DNA from: Thermococcus sp.
Lineage (GTDB): Archaea; Methanobacteriota_B; Thermococci; Thermococcales; Thermococcaceae
Direction of reading: 5' to 3'
Assembly (NCBI GenBank): GCA_027001105.1
Contig: JALTMZ010000020.1
Span: 1 to 7,274, forward strand
DNA: 7,274 bases
Position numbers and translations under genes: made by a program. Positions 2,721-6,755 of this stretch are shown here, in pieces; the stretch's first letter is position 1; every line of letters begins with the position of its first letter. Under the pieces are notes generated by a model. The model worked only from the letters and a program-made list of their open reading frames with translations, was not told the DNA's origin and ran no database searches.

Positions 2721-4022
2721 ATGTCAGCAAAGGACGATTTTGGAACGACTAAATATGTGATCTATGCTGAATTTGAGGCAAATGGAGTTGTTGAAAGACC
2801 TGACGTTGTTGGGGCTATTTTTGGTCAAACCGAGGGTTTACTTGGAGACGATTTAGATTTAAGAGAGCTCCAAAAGACTGGTAGAATTGGAAGGATAAAA
2901 GTTGAAGTTCACACAAAGGCTGGAAAAACATACGGAACAATTACAGTGCCATCAAGTCTTGATAGGGTCGAGACAGCAATCTTAGCGGCTGCACTGGAAA
3001 CAATAGATAGGGTTGGCCCATGTGAGGCAAGGATTAAAGTGATAAAAATCGAAGATGTCAGGGCAACAAAGAGGAAATACATCATTGAGAGAGCTAAGGA
3101 GATACTTGAAACGCTTATGGAGGAGGAAATTCCGGAGAGTCAAGAGCTCACTGAAGAAGTCAAAAAGGCAGTCAGGGCAAAGGAGCTCATTGAATATGGT
3201 CCTGAAAAATTACCAGCTGGACCTCATGTGCCGTTCTCAGACTCAATTATCGTAGTTGAGGGGAGAGCTGATGTGCTCAACCTCCTTAAGCACGGAATAA
3301 AGAATGCCATTGCCGTTGAGGGAACTTCAGTTCCAGAGACAATTATCAGACTGAGCAAGGAAAGAATTGTAACGGCATTCACAGACGGAGACAGAGGTGG
3401 AGAGCTTATCCTTAAGGAGTTGCTGCAAGTTGCCGATATTGATTATGTGGCAAGAGCGCCAGAAGGAAAGGAAGTTGAGGAGCTTACAAAGAAGGAAATA
3501 ATAAAGGCTTTGAGGAGCAAAGTACCAGCGGAGCAGGTTATAAATGAACTCTTCTACAAAGGCAAAAGCTTCTATGATTTAATCAAGGAAAAAGAGAAGG
3601 AAAAAACTGAAGAAACAAAAAGGGAGGAAGTTAGGGCAGAGAAGCCCCCTGTTGCGGTTAAAGAGGAAGGAAAAGAAGCAAGAATTGAACAAAAGAAGGA
3701 AGAGAGATTTATAAAGCCGATTCAAGTTCCAAAAGCAGCAGAACTCGAGAAATTTAAGGAATTCGTCGAAAAAGTGAAAAACAATTCAATGGCTATCTTG
3801 CTGGATGAGAATAAAAATGTCATTGCAGAAATACCGGTTAGGGATCTGCTTAGCTCTTTAAATGACAAAGAAGGCATATATGCAATAATATTCAACGGCA
3901 TAATAACCCAGAGGCTAATTGACATTGTAAGTGAAAAGGGAGTCAAATACTTAATTGGGGCAAGGAAGGCAAATGTAGTCAGAAGACCAGTTGATTTGAA
4001 GATCATTACTTTTGCTGAGTGA
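2643..4022 (+). CDS. dnaG: Archaeal DnaG (Toprim primase-like, exosome-associated)
   Basis: This protein has 459 residues from TTG 2643, or 433 from ATG 2721. In ATG numbering it runs as follows: an N-terminal archaeal DnaG domain (about 8-160, starting GTTKYVIYAEFEANG); a Toprim domain (about 172-260) with catalytic Glu180 in IIVVEGRADVL and metal-binding Asp222/Asp224 in FTDGDRGGE; a Lys/Glu-rich linker (about 286-335); and a conserved C-terminal domain (about 336-433) ending KIITFAE. Archaeal DnaG has been reported as a stable subunit of the RNA exosome that helps recruit poly(A) substrates, and primase activity has been reported in some species. The main replicative primase in archaea is PriSL. 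All Toprim residues are intact. I prefer the TTG start because of its strong Shine-Dalgarno; some Pyrococcus entries have a similar extension as far as I recall, which is unchecked. Confidence 0.95.
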   Translation: MKRKRTVLQHILSEKQKFEKRKVGGNMSAKDDFGTTKYVIYAEFEANGVVERPDVVGAIFGQTEGLLGDDLDLRELQKTGRIGRIKVEVHTKAGKTYGTITVPSSLDRVETAILAAALETIDRVGPCEARIKVIKIEDVRATKRKYIIERAKEILETLMEEEIPESQELTEEVKKAVRAKELIEYGPEKLPAGPHVPFSDSIIVVEGRADVLNLLKHGIKNAIAVEGTSVPETIIRLSKERIVTAFTDGDRGGELILKELLQVADIDYVARAPEGKEVEELTKKEIIKALRSKVPAEQVINELFYKGKSFYDLIKEKEKEKTEETKREEVRAEKPPVAVKEEGKEARIEQKKEERFIKPIQVPKAAELEKFKEFVEKVKNNSMAILLDENKNVIAEIPVRDLLSSLNDKEGIYAIIFNGIITQRLIDIVSEKGVKYLIGARKANVVRRPVDLKIITFAE

Positions 4023-4038
4023 TTTCTCTTTTAATTTT
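4023..4038 (+). terminator. T-rich tract after dnaG
   Basis: TTTCTCTTTTAATTTT follows the dnaG stop codon directly and has no hairpin. It is a plausible Thermococcales-style terminator for the Toprim-dnaG operon. It ends where the 3' end of the minus-strand guide RNA lies. Confidence 0.45.
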
Positions 4039-4099
4039 AGCCTCAGCTAACCCTCTTTTCTTCATCAATTCAGAGTGGCTAACGATCATCATTGGCTAA
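4037..4099 (-). ncRNA. C/D box guide sRNA (minus strand)
   Basis: Read on the minus strand, the elements come in canonical order. The 5' stem TTAGCC (4099-4094) is followed by an unpaired A and the C box ATGATGA (4092-4086). Then come a 12-nt D' guide UCGUUAGCCACU (4085-4074), D' box CTGA (4073-4070), a 4-nt spacer, C' box ATGAAGA (4065-4059, one change from consensus), a 12-nt D guide AAAGAGGGUUAG (4058-4047), D box CTGA (4046-4043) and 3' stem GGCTAA (4042-4037), which pairs perfectly with the 5' stem. Such RNAs bind L7Ae, Nop5 and fibrillarin and direct 2'-O-methylation opposite the fifth guide base before D or D'. The D guide can pair with an archaeal 23S segment UGACCCUCUU (ten pairs, one G-U), pointing to the C equivalent to E. 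coli 23S C1920. The D' target is unknown to me. Confidence 0.85.
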
Positions 4100-4130
4100 G
4101 AGTTTTTAAAGAAAAGAGAATTAAAAGCTT
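4100..4130. promoter_or_regulatory. Compact bidirectional promoter of the two guide RNAs
   Basis: The spacer between the two guide RNAs carries a plus-strand TATA-like TTTTTAAA (4103-4110), centred about 25-28 bases before the plus RNA start. It also carries a minus-strand TATA-like TTTTAAT (4127-4121), centred about 25 bases before the minus RNA start. Each TATA box lies next to the other RNA's start, so TBP/TFB binding at one site could exclude the other. Confidence 0.55.
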
Positions 4131-4187
4131 TGGGATGATGTGCGTTTACCGGTCTGAGCTGTGATGATATCGGCACTGTCTGACCTA
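4131..4187 (+). ncRNA. C/D box guide sRNA (plus strand)
   Basis: The 5' stem TGGG (4131-4134) is followed by C box ATGATGT (4135-4141, last base off consensus), 12-nt D' guide GCGUUUACCGGU (4142-4153), D' box CTGA (4154-4157), 3-nt spacer, perfect C' box GTGATGA (4161-4167), 12-nt D guide UAUCGGCACUGU (4168-4179), D box CTGA (4180-4183) and 3' stem CCTA (4184-4187, one G-U pair). Two guides of exactly 12 nt are the hallmark of archaeal C/D sRNAs. The D' guide complements CCGGUAAACG, a segment of 23S rRNA just before helix 69 as I remember it. Methylation is predicted at the G equivalent to E. coli 1897. The D guide predicts a U within ACAGUGCCGAUA, which I cannot place. The last three bases overlap the tmk stop codon on the other strand. 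Confidence 0.87.
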
Positions 4188-4814
4188 TTCTTTTTTGTTT
4201 AAAATTTCATGTTCAACTAACGCAACTATATCATTGTGTATGTCTTCAATTGATGCAAGAGCATTTACAATTTTCATTTCTGGGAACATTTCAACGAGTT
4301 TAAGGTAGTTCTCTCTGACCCTTTTTTGTAGCTCTGCTATTCTATCAAACTCAGATTTTAGCTGTCTTCCATTTATCCTTTTCATGCTCTCTTTAACAGG
4401 TAAGTCGAGGAGGATCACCAGGTCTGGTCTGATTGCAAATTTGTTTAGATTTATAAGCCATTCCAAATCCAAACCACGGGCCCACTGATAAGCAAGGGAG
4501 GAATAGAAATATCTATCTGAGATCACGACCTTTCCAGCTTTAATGGAGGGTTCTATCAATTTCTTCACATGTTCAGCTCTGTCAGCAGCGAACAAAAGTG
4601 CCTCTGCTTCATGGCTTATCTTTGCCCCATCTATGATACCCTCTCTGCCCCCTGTCAGAACGAGTTTTCGTATCAGTTTTCCAAATGCCGTATCTGTTGG
4701 TTCTTTTGTTAATACCACATCATATCCTCTCCTTTCAAACCATTTTGCCAGTAATTTTGCTTGTGTTGACTTGCCTGCGCCATCAATGCCTTCTATCACG
4801 ATGAAAATACCCAC
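4185..4814 (-). CDS. tmk: Thymidylate kinase (dTMP kinase)
   Basis: It phosphorylates dTMP to dTDP with ATP, a required cytoplasmic step of dTTP synthesis. Numbered from GTG 4814 (209 residues): P-loop GIDGAGKST (9-17); KEPTDTAFG (37-45), which contributes the acidic residue and loop near the substrate; FAADRAEH (75-82); and the nucleoside-binding [11 protein letters not shown] (100-110). The lid region is around [12 protein letters not shown]. Length and motifs match archaeal and bacterial Tmk. The start is decided by the Shine-Dalgarno GGAGGTG (4827-4821) six bases before GTG 4814, which yields the expected [12 protein letters not shown]. The upstream in-frame ATG codons at 4835 and 4829 would put that site inside the gene. 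It converges on dnaG and the plus-strand guide RNA, whose 3' end touches the tmk stop codon. Confidence 0.96.
4188..4200 (+). terminator. T-tract terminator of the plus-strand guide RNA
   Basis: TTCTTTTTTGTTT follows the 3' stem of the plus-strand guide RNA by one base or less. This tract is also the 3' end of the tmk coding sequence on the opposite strand, so the two units are interlocked. Confidence 0.55.
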
Positions 4815-4827
4815 AGCTGACACCTCC
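4812..4827 (-). promoter_or_regulatory. Shine-Dalgarno and GTG that set the tmk start
   Basis: On the minus strand, GGAGGTG (4827-4821) is followed by six bases and then GTG (4814-4812). This makes GTG the likely start even though two in-frame ATG codons lie just upstream. Confidence 0.75.
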
Positions 4828-4850
4828 ATGATCAAAACAAGTGCGCGTGC

Positions 4851-4921: not shown

Positions 4922-5626
4922 TTACAACCTCTTTAAATATTCAAGAAACTTCCACATACTTCCAAAAGATTTTTCTTCCCCTGCTTTGTATAGCTCAATA
5001 ATGCCTTCTGGCTTAAAGCGTAGCCCAAAGTCGTACTCCCCCTTCTTGAGTTTTTGCAGAAAGACTTCTTTTGGTTTTGGTGGTAGATAGCTTGTCATCA
5101 TGTCATTTATCAAATCTGCCTCGAACCCGAAGTGTTCATTGAATCTTGGGAACAAAAGCACTGCTGGGGTATTCATGCAGTCCACAAGGGCTTTTCCCTC
5201 AACTCTAAAGTTGTGATGCTTGAATATTTCATGCAGAAAGTCATCAAGGGCATTTGGATAATACACAGTTGCTCCTATATCATTTGGAGGAGCCTCGATG
5301 AAGTTCTTACTTTCAACTATTGCTTTAATTTCATCAACGTCAAGCCCGCTAACTTCAACCCGTACCCCCCCGTGGTAATAGACGTATGCCAATGGAAGTC
5401 CCTTCCTGTGAGCAAAATCCTTTAGTGCAATCAACGGGATAAGCCTAACATCCATAATCGTTGAGCCAGTGCTTACGATACCAACAACAAGTGCTCTTTT
5501 TCCATACCTTGATATTGCCCTTCCATCCCTTCCCACTATTATGGTTCCTTGGGCAACAGTCCCGATTGCTCTACCGAGCAAAGCTAACTCTTCAGGATTA
5601 AATTTTTCCGAACGATAAATCTCCAT
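4922..5626 (-). CDS. Degenerate phosphohexomutase-like protein (probable pseudoenzyme)
   Basis: These 234 residues align by eye with domains I and II of the phosphomannomutase/phosphoglucomutase superfamily. Matching parts are IIVGRDGRAISRYGKRALVV (29-48, the GRD motif), VGIVSTGSTIMDV (48-60), IGATVYYPNALDDFL and GKALVDCMNT (144-153, start of domain II). Two catalytic elements are absent: the phosphoserine loop TASHNP, replaced near 81-91 by YVYYHGGVRVE, and the metal loop DGDADR, replaced at 204-208 by FKPEG. Domains III and IV are missing; the family usually has about 450 residues. It is therefore unlikely to be an active mutase. ATG 5626 is the start because the Shine-Dalgarno GAGGTG (5638-5633), which overlaps the preceding stop codon, lies six bases before it. 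It is translationally coupled to the nucleotidyltransferase, which suggests a partner or regulatory subunit. Confidence 0.8.
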   Translation of the reverse strand: MEIYRSEKFNPEELALLGRAIGTVAQGTIIVGRDGRAISRYGKRALVVGIVSTGSTIMDVRLIPLIALKDFAHRKGLPLAYVYYHGGVRVEVSGLDVDEIKAIVESKNFIEAPPNDIGATVYYPNALDDFLHEIFKHHNFRVEGKALVDCMNTPAVLLFPRFNEHFGFEADLINDMMTSYLPPKPKEVFLQKLKKGEYDFGLRFKPEGIIELYKAGEEKSFGSMWKFLEYLKRL

Positions 5627-5639
5627 TTGTACCACCTCA
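5624..5639 (-). promoter_or_regulatory. Shine-Dalgarno overlapping a stop codon (translational coupling)
   Basis: On the minus strand, the nucleotidyltransferase stop TGA (5639-5637) is part of TGAGGTGG, which serves as the ribosome site for ATG 5626. Ribosomes ending the first gene are placed to start the second, implying matched production of the two proteins. Confidence 0.7.
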
Positions 5640-6722
5640 ATCTGGCAGGATTATGCTTTCTTTTCCAATTCTTGACTCAACCCAAATCTTGACATTCGCA
5701 CCAACTTTGCTGAACTCTTCGATTACGGTATTATCACCAATAACGCTTCCTGCCTCTATTTCAACACCTTTACCTATGTACACATTTTCCCCGATTATCG
5801 CCTCCCTTATCTCGGCGCCTTCTTCGATCGTAACATTTGAGAATATTACTGAACGTTCTATTTTAACATTTCTGCCAATTTCGACGTTATCCCCCAACAC
5901 GGCAAAACCCCTGACTTCGAATTTCCTAAGTTTGCATCTTTTCCCAGTGACTATAGCCCCTCCATATTCCAAGTTTCCTTTTAATGTGTCCACTCTAATC
6001 TCTGGCAATCTTAGCTTTCCGAGGAAAACATCTTCTGTTGCCTGAAGATAGCTTGATGGTCTCCCCACATCGTTCCAGTATTCTTTAAAGGGAAATCCAA
6101 AGAGAGGCAAATTTTCTTCAAGCATTTTTGGGAATAGATGAAGTGAATAGTCGAAATTAGTTTTTGGAGGAATTAAATCAAAGACTTCTGGTTCAAATAC
6201 ATAAATTCCAGCATTAACAAGGTTGCTGAATGCTTCCTCTGGCTTGGGTTTCTCTTTAAAGCGAATTATCCTATTTTCGTTATCAACAATTGCAATGCCG
6301 TATTGAGTTGGATCTTCTACTTCGCTAAGAGCTATTGTTGCCAGTGCCTTTTTCTTCTTATGATACTCATAGAGTGCCTTTATGTCAAGATTCGTTAGTA
6401 CATCGCTTGATGCAACTATGAAGGTGTCCTCAATTTTGTCCACTACTTTTTTTGTGGCTCCAGCAGTTCCGAGTTTTATGTTCTCCCCATTAGAATAATG
6501 GATTTCAACGCCAAATTCACTACCATCTCCGAAGTAATCCATTATCCTTTCTTTTAAGTATCCAACAAGGACAAAGATTTCATCAACACCAGCGTCTATA
6601 AGGCTCCTAAGTATGTACTCCATCAGTGGTTTATTGAAAAACGGTATCATCGGCTTTGGTCTGTAAACGGTGAGCGGTAACAAACGCGTTCCTTTGCCTC
6701 CTGCCATTATTACTGCTTGCAT
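5637..6722 (-). CDS. Sugar-1-phosphate nucleotidyltransferase, mannose-1-phosphate guanylyltransferase type
   Basis: This 361-residue enzyme activates a sugar 1-phosphate with an NTP, most likely mannose 1-phosphate with GTP to GDP-mannose, for glycan, glycolipid or compatible-solute synthesis. The nucleotidyltransferase domain (about 1-235) shows the signature AGGKGTRLLPLT (7-18) with RPKPMIP (21-27), LGTAGA (84-89), Asp107 in VASSDVL (likely metal ligand), FKEKP (155-159), NAGIY (170-174) and WNDVGRP (216-222, Asp218 likely metal ligand). The C-terminal part (about 250-361) is a left-handed beta-helix of hexapeptide repeats, for example VLGDNVEIGRNVKIERSVIF. Base and sugar specificity cannot be read from sequence, so a UTP- or dTTP-using relative remains possible. 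ATG 6722 is chosen because AGGTG (6733-6729) lies six bases before it; the in-frame GTG at 6731 overlaps that site. It is first gene of a two-gene operon. Confidence 0.9.
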   Translation of the reverse strand: MQAVIMAGGKGTRLLPLTVYRPKPMIPFFNKPLMEYILRSLIDAGVDEIFVLVGYLKERIMDYFGDGSEFGVEIHYSNGENIKLGTAGATKKVVDKIEDTFIVASSDVLTNLDIKALYEYHKKKKALATIALSEVEDPTQYGIAIVDNENRIIRFKEKPKPEEAFSNLVNAGIYVFEPEVFDLIPPKTNFDYSLHLFPKMLEENLPLFGFPFKEYWNDVGRPSSYLQATEDVFLGKLRLPEIRVDTLKGNLEYGGAIVTGKRCKLRKFEVRGFAVLGDNVEIGRNVKIERSVIFSNVTIEEGAEIREAIIGENVYIGKGVEIEAGSVIGDNTVIEEFSKVGANVKIWVESRIGKESIILPD

Positions 6723-6755
6723 ATCTAACACCTAAGAGTTAGTTAAGTAGGGAGA

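Follow-up and report, generated by a model that had tools for sequence, protein, structure and literature searches.

When two box C/D guide RNAs lie back to back on opposite strands of one short gap, the question is whether they are neighbours by chance or parts of one unit. We met this arrangement between dnaG and tmk in a 7,274-nt stretch of Thermococcus sp. DNA (contig JALTMZ010000020.1; the whole stretch is called the window below), where the dnaG stop codon (4020-4022, plus strand) and the tmk stop codon (4185-4187, minus strand) enclose a gap of 162 bases (4023-4184). An earlier note on this DNA had read two complete C/D sRNAs in the gap, one per strand, and had proposed a covariance search as the check; in that search both RNAs exceed the Rfam gathering cut-offs, the minus-strand one as sR34 (RF01273, match at 4041-4096, 66.9 bits, cut-off 40, E 2.6e-11) and the plus-strand one as sR12 (RF01147, match at 4133-4184, 60.0 bits, cut-off 38, E 8.6e-11). 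Both have the C, D′, C′, D order and the guides of about 12 nt that define archaeal C/D box sRNAs, and the details that had been described, namely four ordered boxes and two 12-nt guides per RNA with terminal stems of six pairs (minus RNA) and four (plus RNA), are borne out (Table 1); the C box of sR12 departs from the consensus at one position, and one of its stem pairs is G-U. The 5′ ends of the two RNAs point at each other and their C boxes are 42 nt apart. The window RNAs are members, by score, of two known C/D families and, because both belong to known Rfam families, are not themselves new.

Table 1. Positions of the two sRNAs, their parts, predicted promoters and flanking genes in the window, and of close C/D candidate pairs in genome G004
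Feature	Position	Strand	Basis or remark
dnaG, left neighbour	2721..4022	+	NCBIfam NF003108, 574.8 bits
sR34 C/D box sRNA with terminal stem	4037..4099	-	Rfam RF01273; boxes and stem read in sequence
sR34 C box	4092-4086	-	read in sequence
sR34 D′ guide, 12 nt	4085-4074	-	read in sequence
sR34 D′ box	4073-4070	-	read in sequence
sR34 C′ box	4065-4059	-	read in sequence
sR34 D guide, 12 nt	4058-4047	-	read in sequence
sR34 D box	4046-4043	-	read in sequence
sR34 terminal stem TTAGCC/GGCTAA, six pairs	4099-4094 with 4042-4037	-	read in sequence
TATA-like box TTTTTAAA, predicted sR12 promoter	4103..4110	+	8/8 to TTTWWAAA; centre 28 nt before C box
TATA-like box TTTTAATT, predicted sR34 promoter	4119..4126	-	6/8 to TTTWWAAA; centre 30 nt before C box
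sR12 C/D box sRNA with terminal stem, overlaps tmk stop codon	4131..4187	+	Rfam RF01147; boxes and stem in sequence
sR12 C box ATGATGT, one mismatch to RTGATGA	4135-4141	+	read in sequence
sR12 D′ guide, 12 nt	4142-4153	+	read in sequence
sR12 D′ box	4154-4157	+	read in sequence
sR12 C′ box	4161-4167	+	read in sequence
sR12 D guide, 12 nt	4168-4179	+	read in sequence
sR12 D box	4180-4183	+	read in sequence
sR12 terminal stem, four pairs including one G-U	4131-4134 with 4184-4187	+	read in sequence
tmk, right neighbour, convergent with sR12	4185..4835	-	NCBIfam TIGR00041, 193.9 bits
G004 second divergent C/D candidate pair	G004:C1:230461-230516 and 230633-230690		116 bp apart; RF00095
G004 tandem C/D candidate pair	G004:C1 631519-631575 and 631585-631640		RF00095

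C/D boxes are short, and on this ground it could be argued that the motifs arose by chance and mark no RNA at all. We reject this as vanishingly improbable on the Rfam scores, whose E values lie far past chance, on the conservation of the pair and on its conserved guides; moreover RNA is reported from the corresponding T. kodakarensis locus (PMC9014305), which already refutes the chance explanation for the family.

The pair is widespread in the Thermococcaceae. sR34 scored over its cut-off in 92 of the 94 genomes of this family that were searched, the two without a match (G010 and G053) being incomplete drafts (77% and 73%); 21 further genomes of the class, from outside the family, yielded no sR34. 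We inspected all 92 best sR34 loci, grouping them as g1 (the window's genus) to g6, and 82 of them have sR12 facing sR34 head to head; it is absent from beside sR34 at the other ten (six of the 13 g5 loci, all three of g2 and the single g6 locus). Because the Rfam sR12 model passes its cut-off in few genomes (14 of 94, with E 0.001 reached somewhere in 81), most sR12 assignments beyond these 14 rest on the D′ guide flanked by boxes. The inner 10 positions of that guide are invariant in 82/82, with boxes that are often degenerate (the D box is CTGA in 32 and CCGA in 38 of the 82), and the core of the sR34 D′ guide, CGTTAGCCAC (window 4074-4085, minus strand), is identical at all 92 loci. A lack of conservation in close relatives, which would have counted against the RNAs, is thus not seen: the guides are kept.

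Between D′ and C′, sR12 has a loop of 3 nt at 31 of the 82 loci, the window included; 38 loci have 10 or 11 nt there, and four have 20 nt. G089 has sR12 on two contigs (C20:6790-6841 and C234:7578-7629), possibly through assembly overlap. We also considered whether sR12 had been relocated in the ten genomes that lack it beside sR34, and rejected this: nine of the ten contain its D′ core, CGTTTACCGG, at 13 places in total, six of these being rRNA antisense, and the seven non-rRNA places had, by eye, no C/D boxes around them. Second sR34 copies in g4 and g5 were rejected too, as the nine loci checked from 25 second matches were a different C/D RNA; this sRNA, which has guides of its own (L243-L251), is picked up by the sR34 model as a further match in several genomes of both groups. 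A pattern scan of the genome contigs gave 54 stretches, many of them bacterial and likely due to chance, which serve as context only.

Head-to-head placement had been called unusual for such RNAs, and so it is in the genomes that we checked with RF00095 (G092, G087, G004, G024 and G079). Within 500 nt, sR34/sR12 is the sole divergent pair among 23 matches in G092 and 21 in G087; the 38 matches in G004 include one other divergent pair and one tandem pair (Table 1), and no close C/D pair was found with this model among the 14 matches in G024 or the 12 in G079. These counts are lower bounds because RF00095 overlooks sRNAs: in G004 it fails to pick up sR34, and in G024 it picks up neither member of the pair.

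The setting given for the pair in the earlier note, a dnaG-tmk gap, describes the window's genus, in which dnaG adjoins it at 7/7 loci; elsewhere the neighbours differ while the pair persists. As the dnaG neighbour is confined to g1, we reject a fixed dnaG-tmk association. Beyond sR12 in the 82 pairs stands tmk (51), gcvPB (21), another ORF (nine) or no called gene (one, in G089, where a cut tmk is seen); beyond sR34 stands dnaG (seven), DUF2334 (19), F4 (14), F5 (12), an alpha/beta hydrolase (11), others (17) or no called gene (two). Families were identified by Pfam on six representatives; F4 is an ABC ATPase by eye, F4, F5, F6 and the rarer neighbour groups are families as grouped here, and the calling of some of the rare ORFs is uncertain. 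At the g2 and g6 loci (L119-L122) sR34 stands beside tmk without sR12, convergent with tmk in three and co-directional in one. A left gene was called for 80 of the pairs; it is co-directional with sR12 in 40 and opposite in 40. sR34-sR12 is a unit retained while its neighbouring genes change.

To look for promoters, we compared the 8-mers lying 20-38 nt ahead of each C box with TTTWWAAA; the window has two TATA-like boxes, 16 bp apart. Across the loci there are four promoter forms, which follow the C-box spacing: staggered boxes (41-43 nt), a shared box (56-59 nt), a longer spacer (86 nt) and no box (8 nt). In g4, 60/60 pairs have a common symmetric box of 7 or 8 of 8, placed 27-30 nt ahead of either C box, the best boxes for the two strands coinciding with centres within 1 nt; with letter-shuffled spacers (200 rounds) the mean was 0.56 of 60 and the maximum 5. 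The 28 distinct 58-nt spacers are invariant at the TATA core and at the two edges of the terminal stems, and in g4 the columns flanking the TATA-like box are partly conserved. A single TATA box at promoter distance for both strands is thus present in all 60 g4 pairs and in G012, and not in the window with its two staggered boxes. Staggering is seen in all 14 pairs of g1 and g5, which have one box per RNA, offset by 15-18 bp (16-18 bp in g1) and interdigitating; the sR34 box, at 6 of 8, is weak in 6/7 g1 and 11/13 g5 loci, and these staggered-box figures are raw counts, the shuffle control covering the shared-box form of g4. Group g3 is mixed: spacings of 42 or 43 (two loci) go with staggered boxes, 58 (one locus) with a shared box and 86 (two loci) with an sR12 box of 6 of 8 and no good sR34 box, and at three Pyrococcus loci with 8-nt spacing, tightly enclosed by DUF2334 and gcvPB, no TATA-like box was found. 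A promoter between the RNAs is therefore not universal, since these three loci have no box and two others no good sR34 box; at the 8-nt loci transcription is possibly by read-through from DUF2334 and gcvPB.

Read-through might apply more generally, with the 3′ ends of convergent neighbour mRNAs processed into the sRNAs (dnaG read-through giving sR12 and tmk read-through giving sR34), which would then need no promoters of their own. Each RNA in the window does lie downstream of a co-directional gene, and section 9 of a review (PMC7994747) gives most archaeal C/D sRNAs as being without their own TATA box, about 20% having one; promoterless C/D sRNAs processed from neighbouring transcripts, as described there, are a possible state of the three boxless, enclosed Pyrococcus loci. 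The g1, g4 and g5 loci differ from these in carrying TATA-like boxes, at the right distance, reported starts adjoin both RNAs in T. kodakarensis (PMC9014305), and the left gene lies on the strand opposite sR12 in half of the pairs (40/80); we regard an origin of the sRNAs by mRNA processing as quite unlikely.

The T. kodakarensis data come from the work of others. Table 1 of PMC9014305 gives sR41 at 1226838-1226899 and sR42 at 1226948-1227017, as separate rows and with no remark in the table on their arrangement; by coordinates sR41 is the sR34 of G024 (1226844-1226898, minus strand) and sR42 its sR12 (C box at 1226953), which makes this the same locus type, in another species, with other neighbours and with one shared box where the window has two staggered ones. 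Both homologues are detected as RNA there, so that a lack of small-RNA reads, which the earlier note had held would refute the pair, is not the case in that species. The starts, quoted in that table from a 2014 map and headed ‘predicted’, are 1226903 and 1226948; they flank the single shared box TTTTAAAA (1226921-1226928), whose centre lies 21.5 and 23.5 nt from them, and the median TATA-to-start distance in T. kodakarensis is 23 bp (PMC4247193, 2014; sR41 and sR42 are unnamed in the main text of that paper). Mapped starts on both strands at about 23 nt from the box are thus available for T. kodakarensis only.

In P. furiosus, two-way starts about 50 bp apart have been reported from single TATA boxes, with in vitro proof for one promoter (PMC6640164); the separation in the T. 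kodakarensis pair is 45 bp. These BRE-TATA-BRE promoters resemble our shared-box loci in their near-symmetric TATA and starts on both strands, a comparison made at the TATA level. Archaeal TATA boxes are nearly symmetric, and that study reads two-way starts as mostly non-functional, the second product being taken as non-functional antisense RNA, whereas sR34 and sR12 are both conserved guide RNAs; the terms ‘snoRNA’ and ‘box sRNA’ are absent from its main text.

It could also be that two ordinary, independent promoters lie close by chance, with no coupling and a pairing that is historical. The window's two boxes are distinct, and the output of the two T. kodakarensis RNAs is unequal, as their read counts differ: small-RNA reads sixfold (1,967 for sR41, 12,085 for sR42) and circular reads over two-hundredfold (31 and 7,194, dropping to 0 and 10 when the RNA ligase TK1545 is absent; PMC9014305). 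However, the arrangement is kept at 82/92 loci through neighbour changes and one box serves both RNAs in g4, which makes independence an unlikely account of the pair.

The earlier note had offered duplication or joint expression as reasons for the pairing. Joint expression has gained evidence, in the TATA-like boxes and the T. kodakarensis starts, and duplication is only weakly hinted at. If one sRNA had been duplicated into divergent copies whose guides changed later, the agreement of the D′ guides at 7/12 positions (matched by 3 of 190 control D′ pairs and by 392 of 20,000 shuffles) could be a trace of it, as could the three of the four g2 and g6 loci at which sR34, with no sR12, is convergent with tmk and so takes the place that sR12 has elsewhere. 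The D guides, however, agree at just 3/12 positions in the window, and the sR12 model gives sR34 20.1 bits, no higher than several other sR families. We think a duplication improbable; it would be compatible with our main reading (below), which concerns present function, and coupled transcription is the better supported of the two.

For the guide targets, the rRNA of G092, from the window's genus, was substituted because the window's genome (G000) has no LSU match, and was used together with that of G024, G004 and G002. In C/D guiding, the methylated nucleotide is placed opposite the guide by a five-base rule, and we took as target the base five from the box. Complementarity to rRNA or tRNA is found for three of the four guides, and all three fall in one 76-nt stretch of 23S (in G092 numbering, sR12 D at 1959-1970, sR12 D′ at 2000-2011 and sR34 D at 2023-2034), at sites identical in 4/4 rRNAs; the predicted methyls, in E. 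coli numbering, are U1841, G1897 and C1920 respectively. Singly the matches are modest, being equalled by 20, 27 and 33 of 300 shuffled guides. Nearby targets for the two guides of one sRNA are ordinary, so that the only addition is sR34 D joining the sR12 sites, for which we estimate a chance of roughly 3% on an even spread of targets. C1920, in helix 69, is also the 2′-O-methylation site of bacterial TlyA (PMC12805891), a stand-alone protein enzyme, not RNA-guided, which has only the site in common with the sR34 prediction. Dennis et al. (2015) predicted dense methylation in helix 69 of hyperthermophiles (PMC4644070), and the target region is on this account a methylation hot spot.

The fourth guide, sR34 D′, had no convincing target in the 16S and 23S of G092 (293 of 300 shuffled guides were as good) and none in the 44 ARAGORN tRNAs of that genome, a list without tRNA-Trp; the places in the genome that it matches with one mismatch were without an Rfam RNA over cut-off in 36/36 cases. 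Against 23S it has a 10-bp site in G004 and 7 bp in G092 and G024. A further C/D candidate of G092 (L298, D′ box ATGA) has a D′ guide, AACCGGCACTGG, that complements the 23S site of the sR12 D guide, so sR12 may not be the sole U1841 guide.

From the identity and box architecture of the RNAs, the conservation of the pair amid neighbour change, the placement of the TATA-like boxes and the three-guide 23S complementarity observed here, we consider it likely that sR34 and sR12 form a head-to-head unit whose overlapping TATA boxes probably drive transcription in both directions and whose guides are predicted to direct 2′-O-methylation of neighbouring sites in the 76-nt 23S stretch. The window's two staggered boxes would be the promoters of sR34 and sR12, and two initiation complexes presumably could not occupy them at once; if they cannot sit together, the output of the two RNAs would be linked, and we infer coupled expression of this kind in the window's organism. 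L7Ae, Nop5 and fibrillarin assemble on archaeal C/D sRNPs; they would be expected to do so on both of these RNAs, and the predicted 23S nucleotides would then be methylated.

A bolder proposal, plausible to us with the balance slightly against it, is that the symmetric TATA element is a dedicated two-way promoter yielding two functional guide RNAs in linked amounts, which jointly mark a 23S stretch ending at helix 69 C1920, and that the unit has been carried through repeated neighbour changes with its promoter taking four forms. If true, these loci would be a natural series showing how archaea put TATA-box symmetry to use. With two conserved RNAs as its products, the locus lends itself to testing whether this symmetry is exploited by archaea: nature supplies variants of the promoter, and both outputs are easy to measure. 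It also connects guides whose predicted sites are close to one another in and near helix 69, where the ribosomal subunits are in contact. A promoter shared by two functional guides appears to be undescribed: we found no shared promoter of C/D sRNAs in the literature, which is weak evidence as the search was mostly without subscription journals and supplements. To the known RNAs the analysis adds that they stand as one conserved unit, whose start signals overlap or are shared, and that three of the four guides have a predicted target region in common.

Beyond tmk in the window, the minus strand carries an ORF of 237 aa (4922-5635) that matches phosphoglucosamine mutase only weakly; next to it, on the same strand and abutting it, is an ORF of a sugar-phosphate nucleotidyltransferase (5637-6731).
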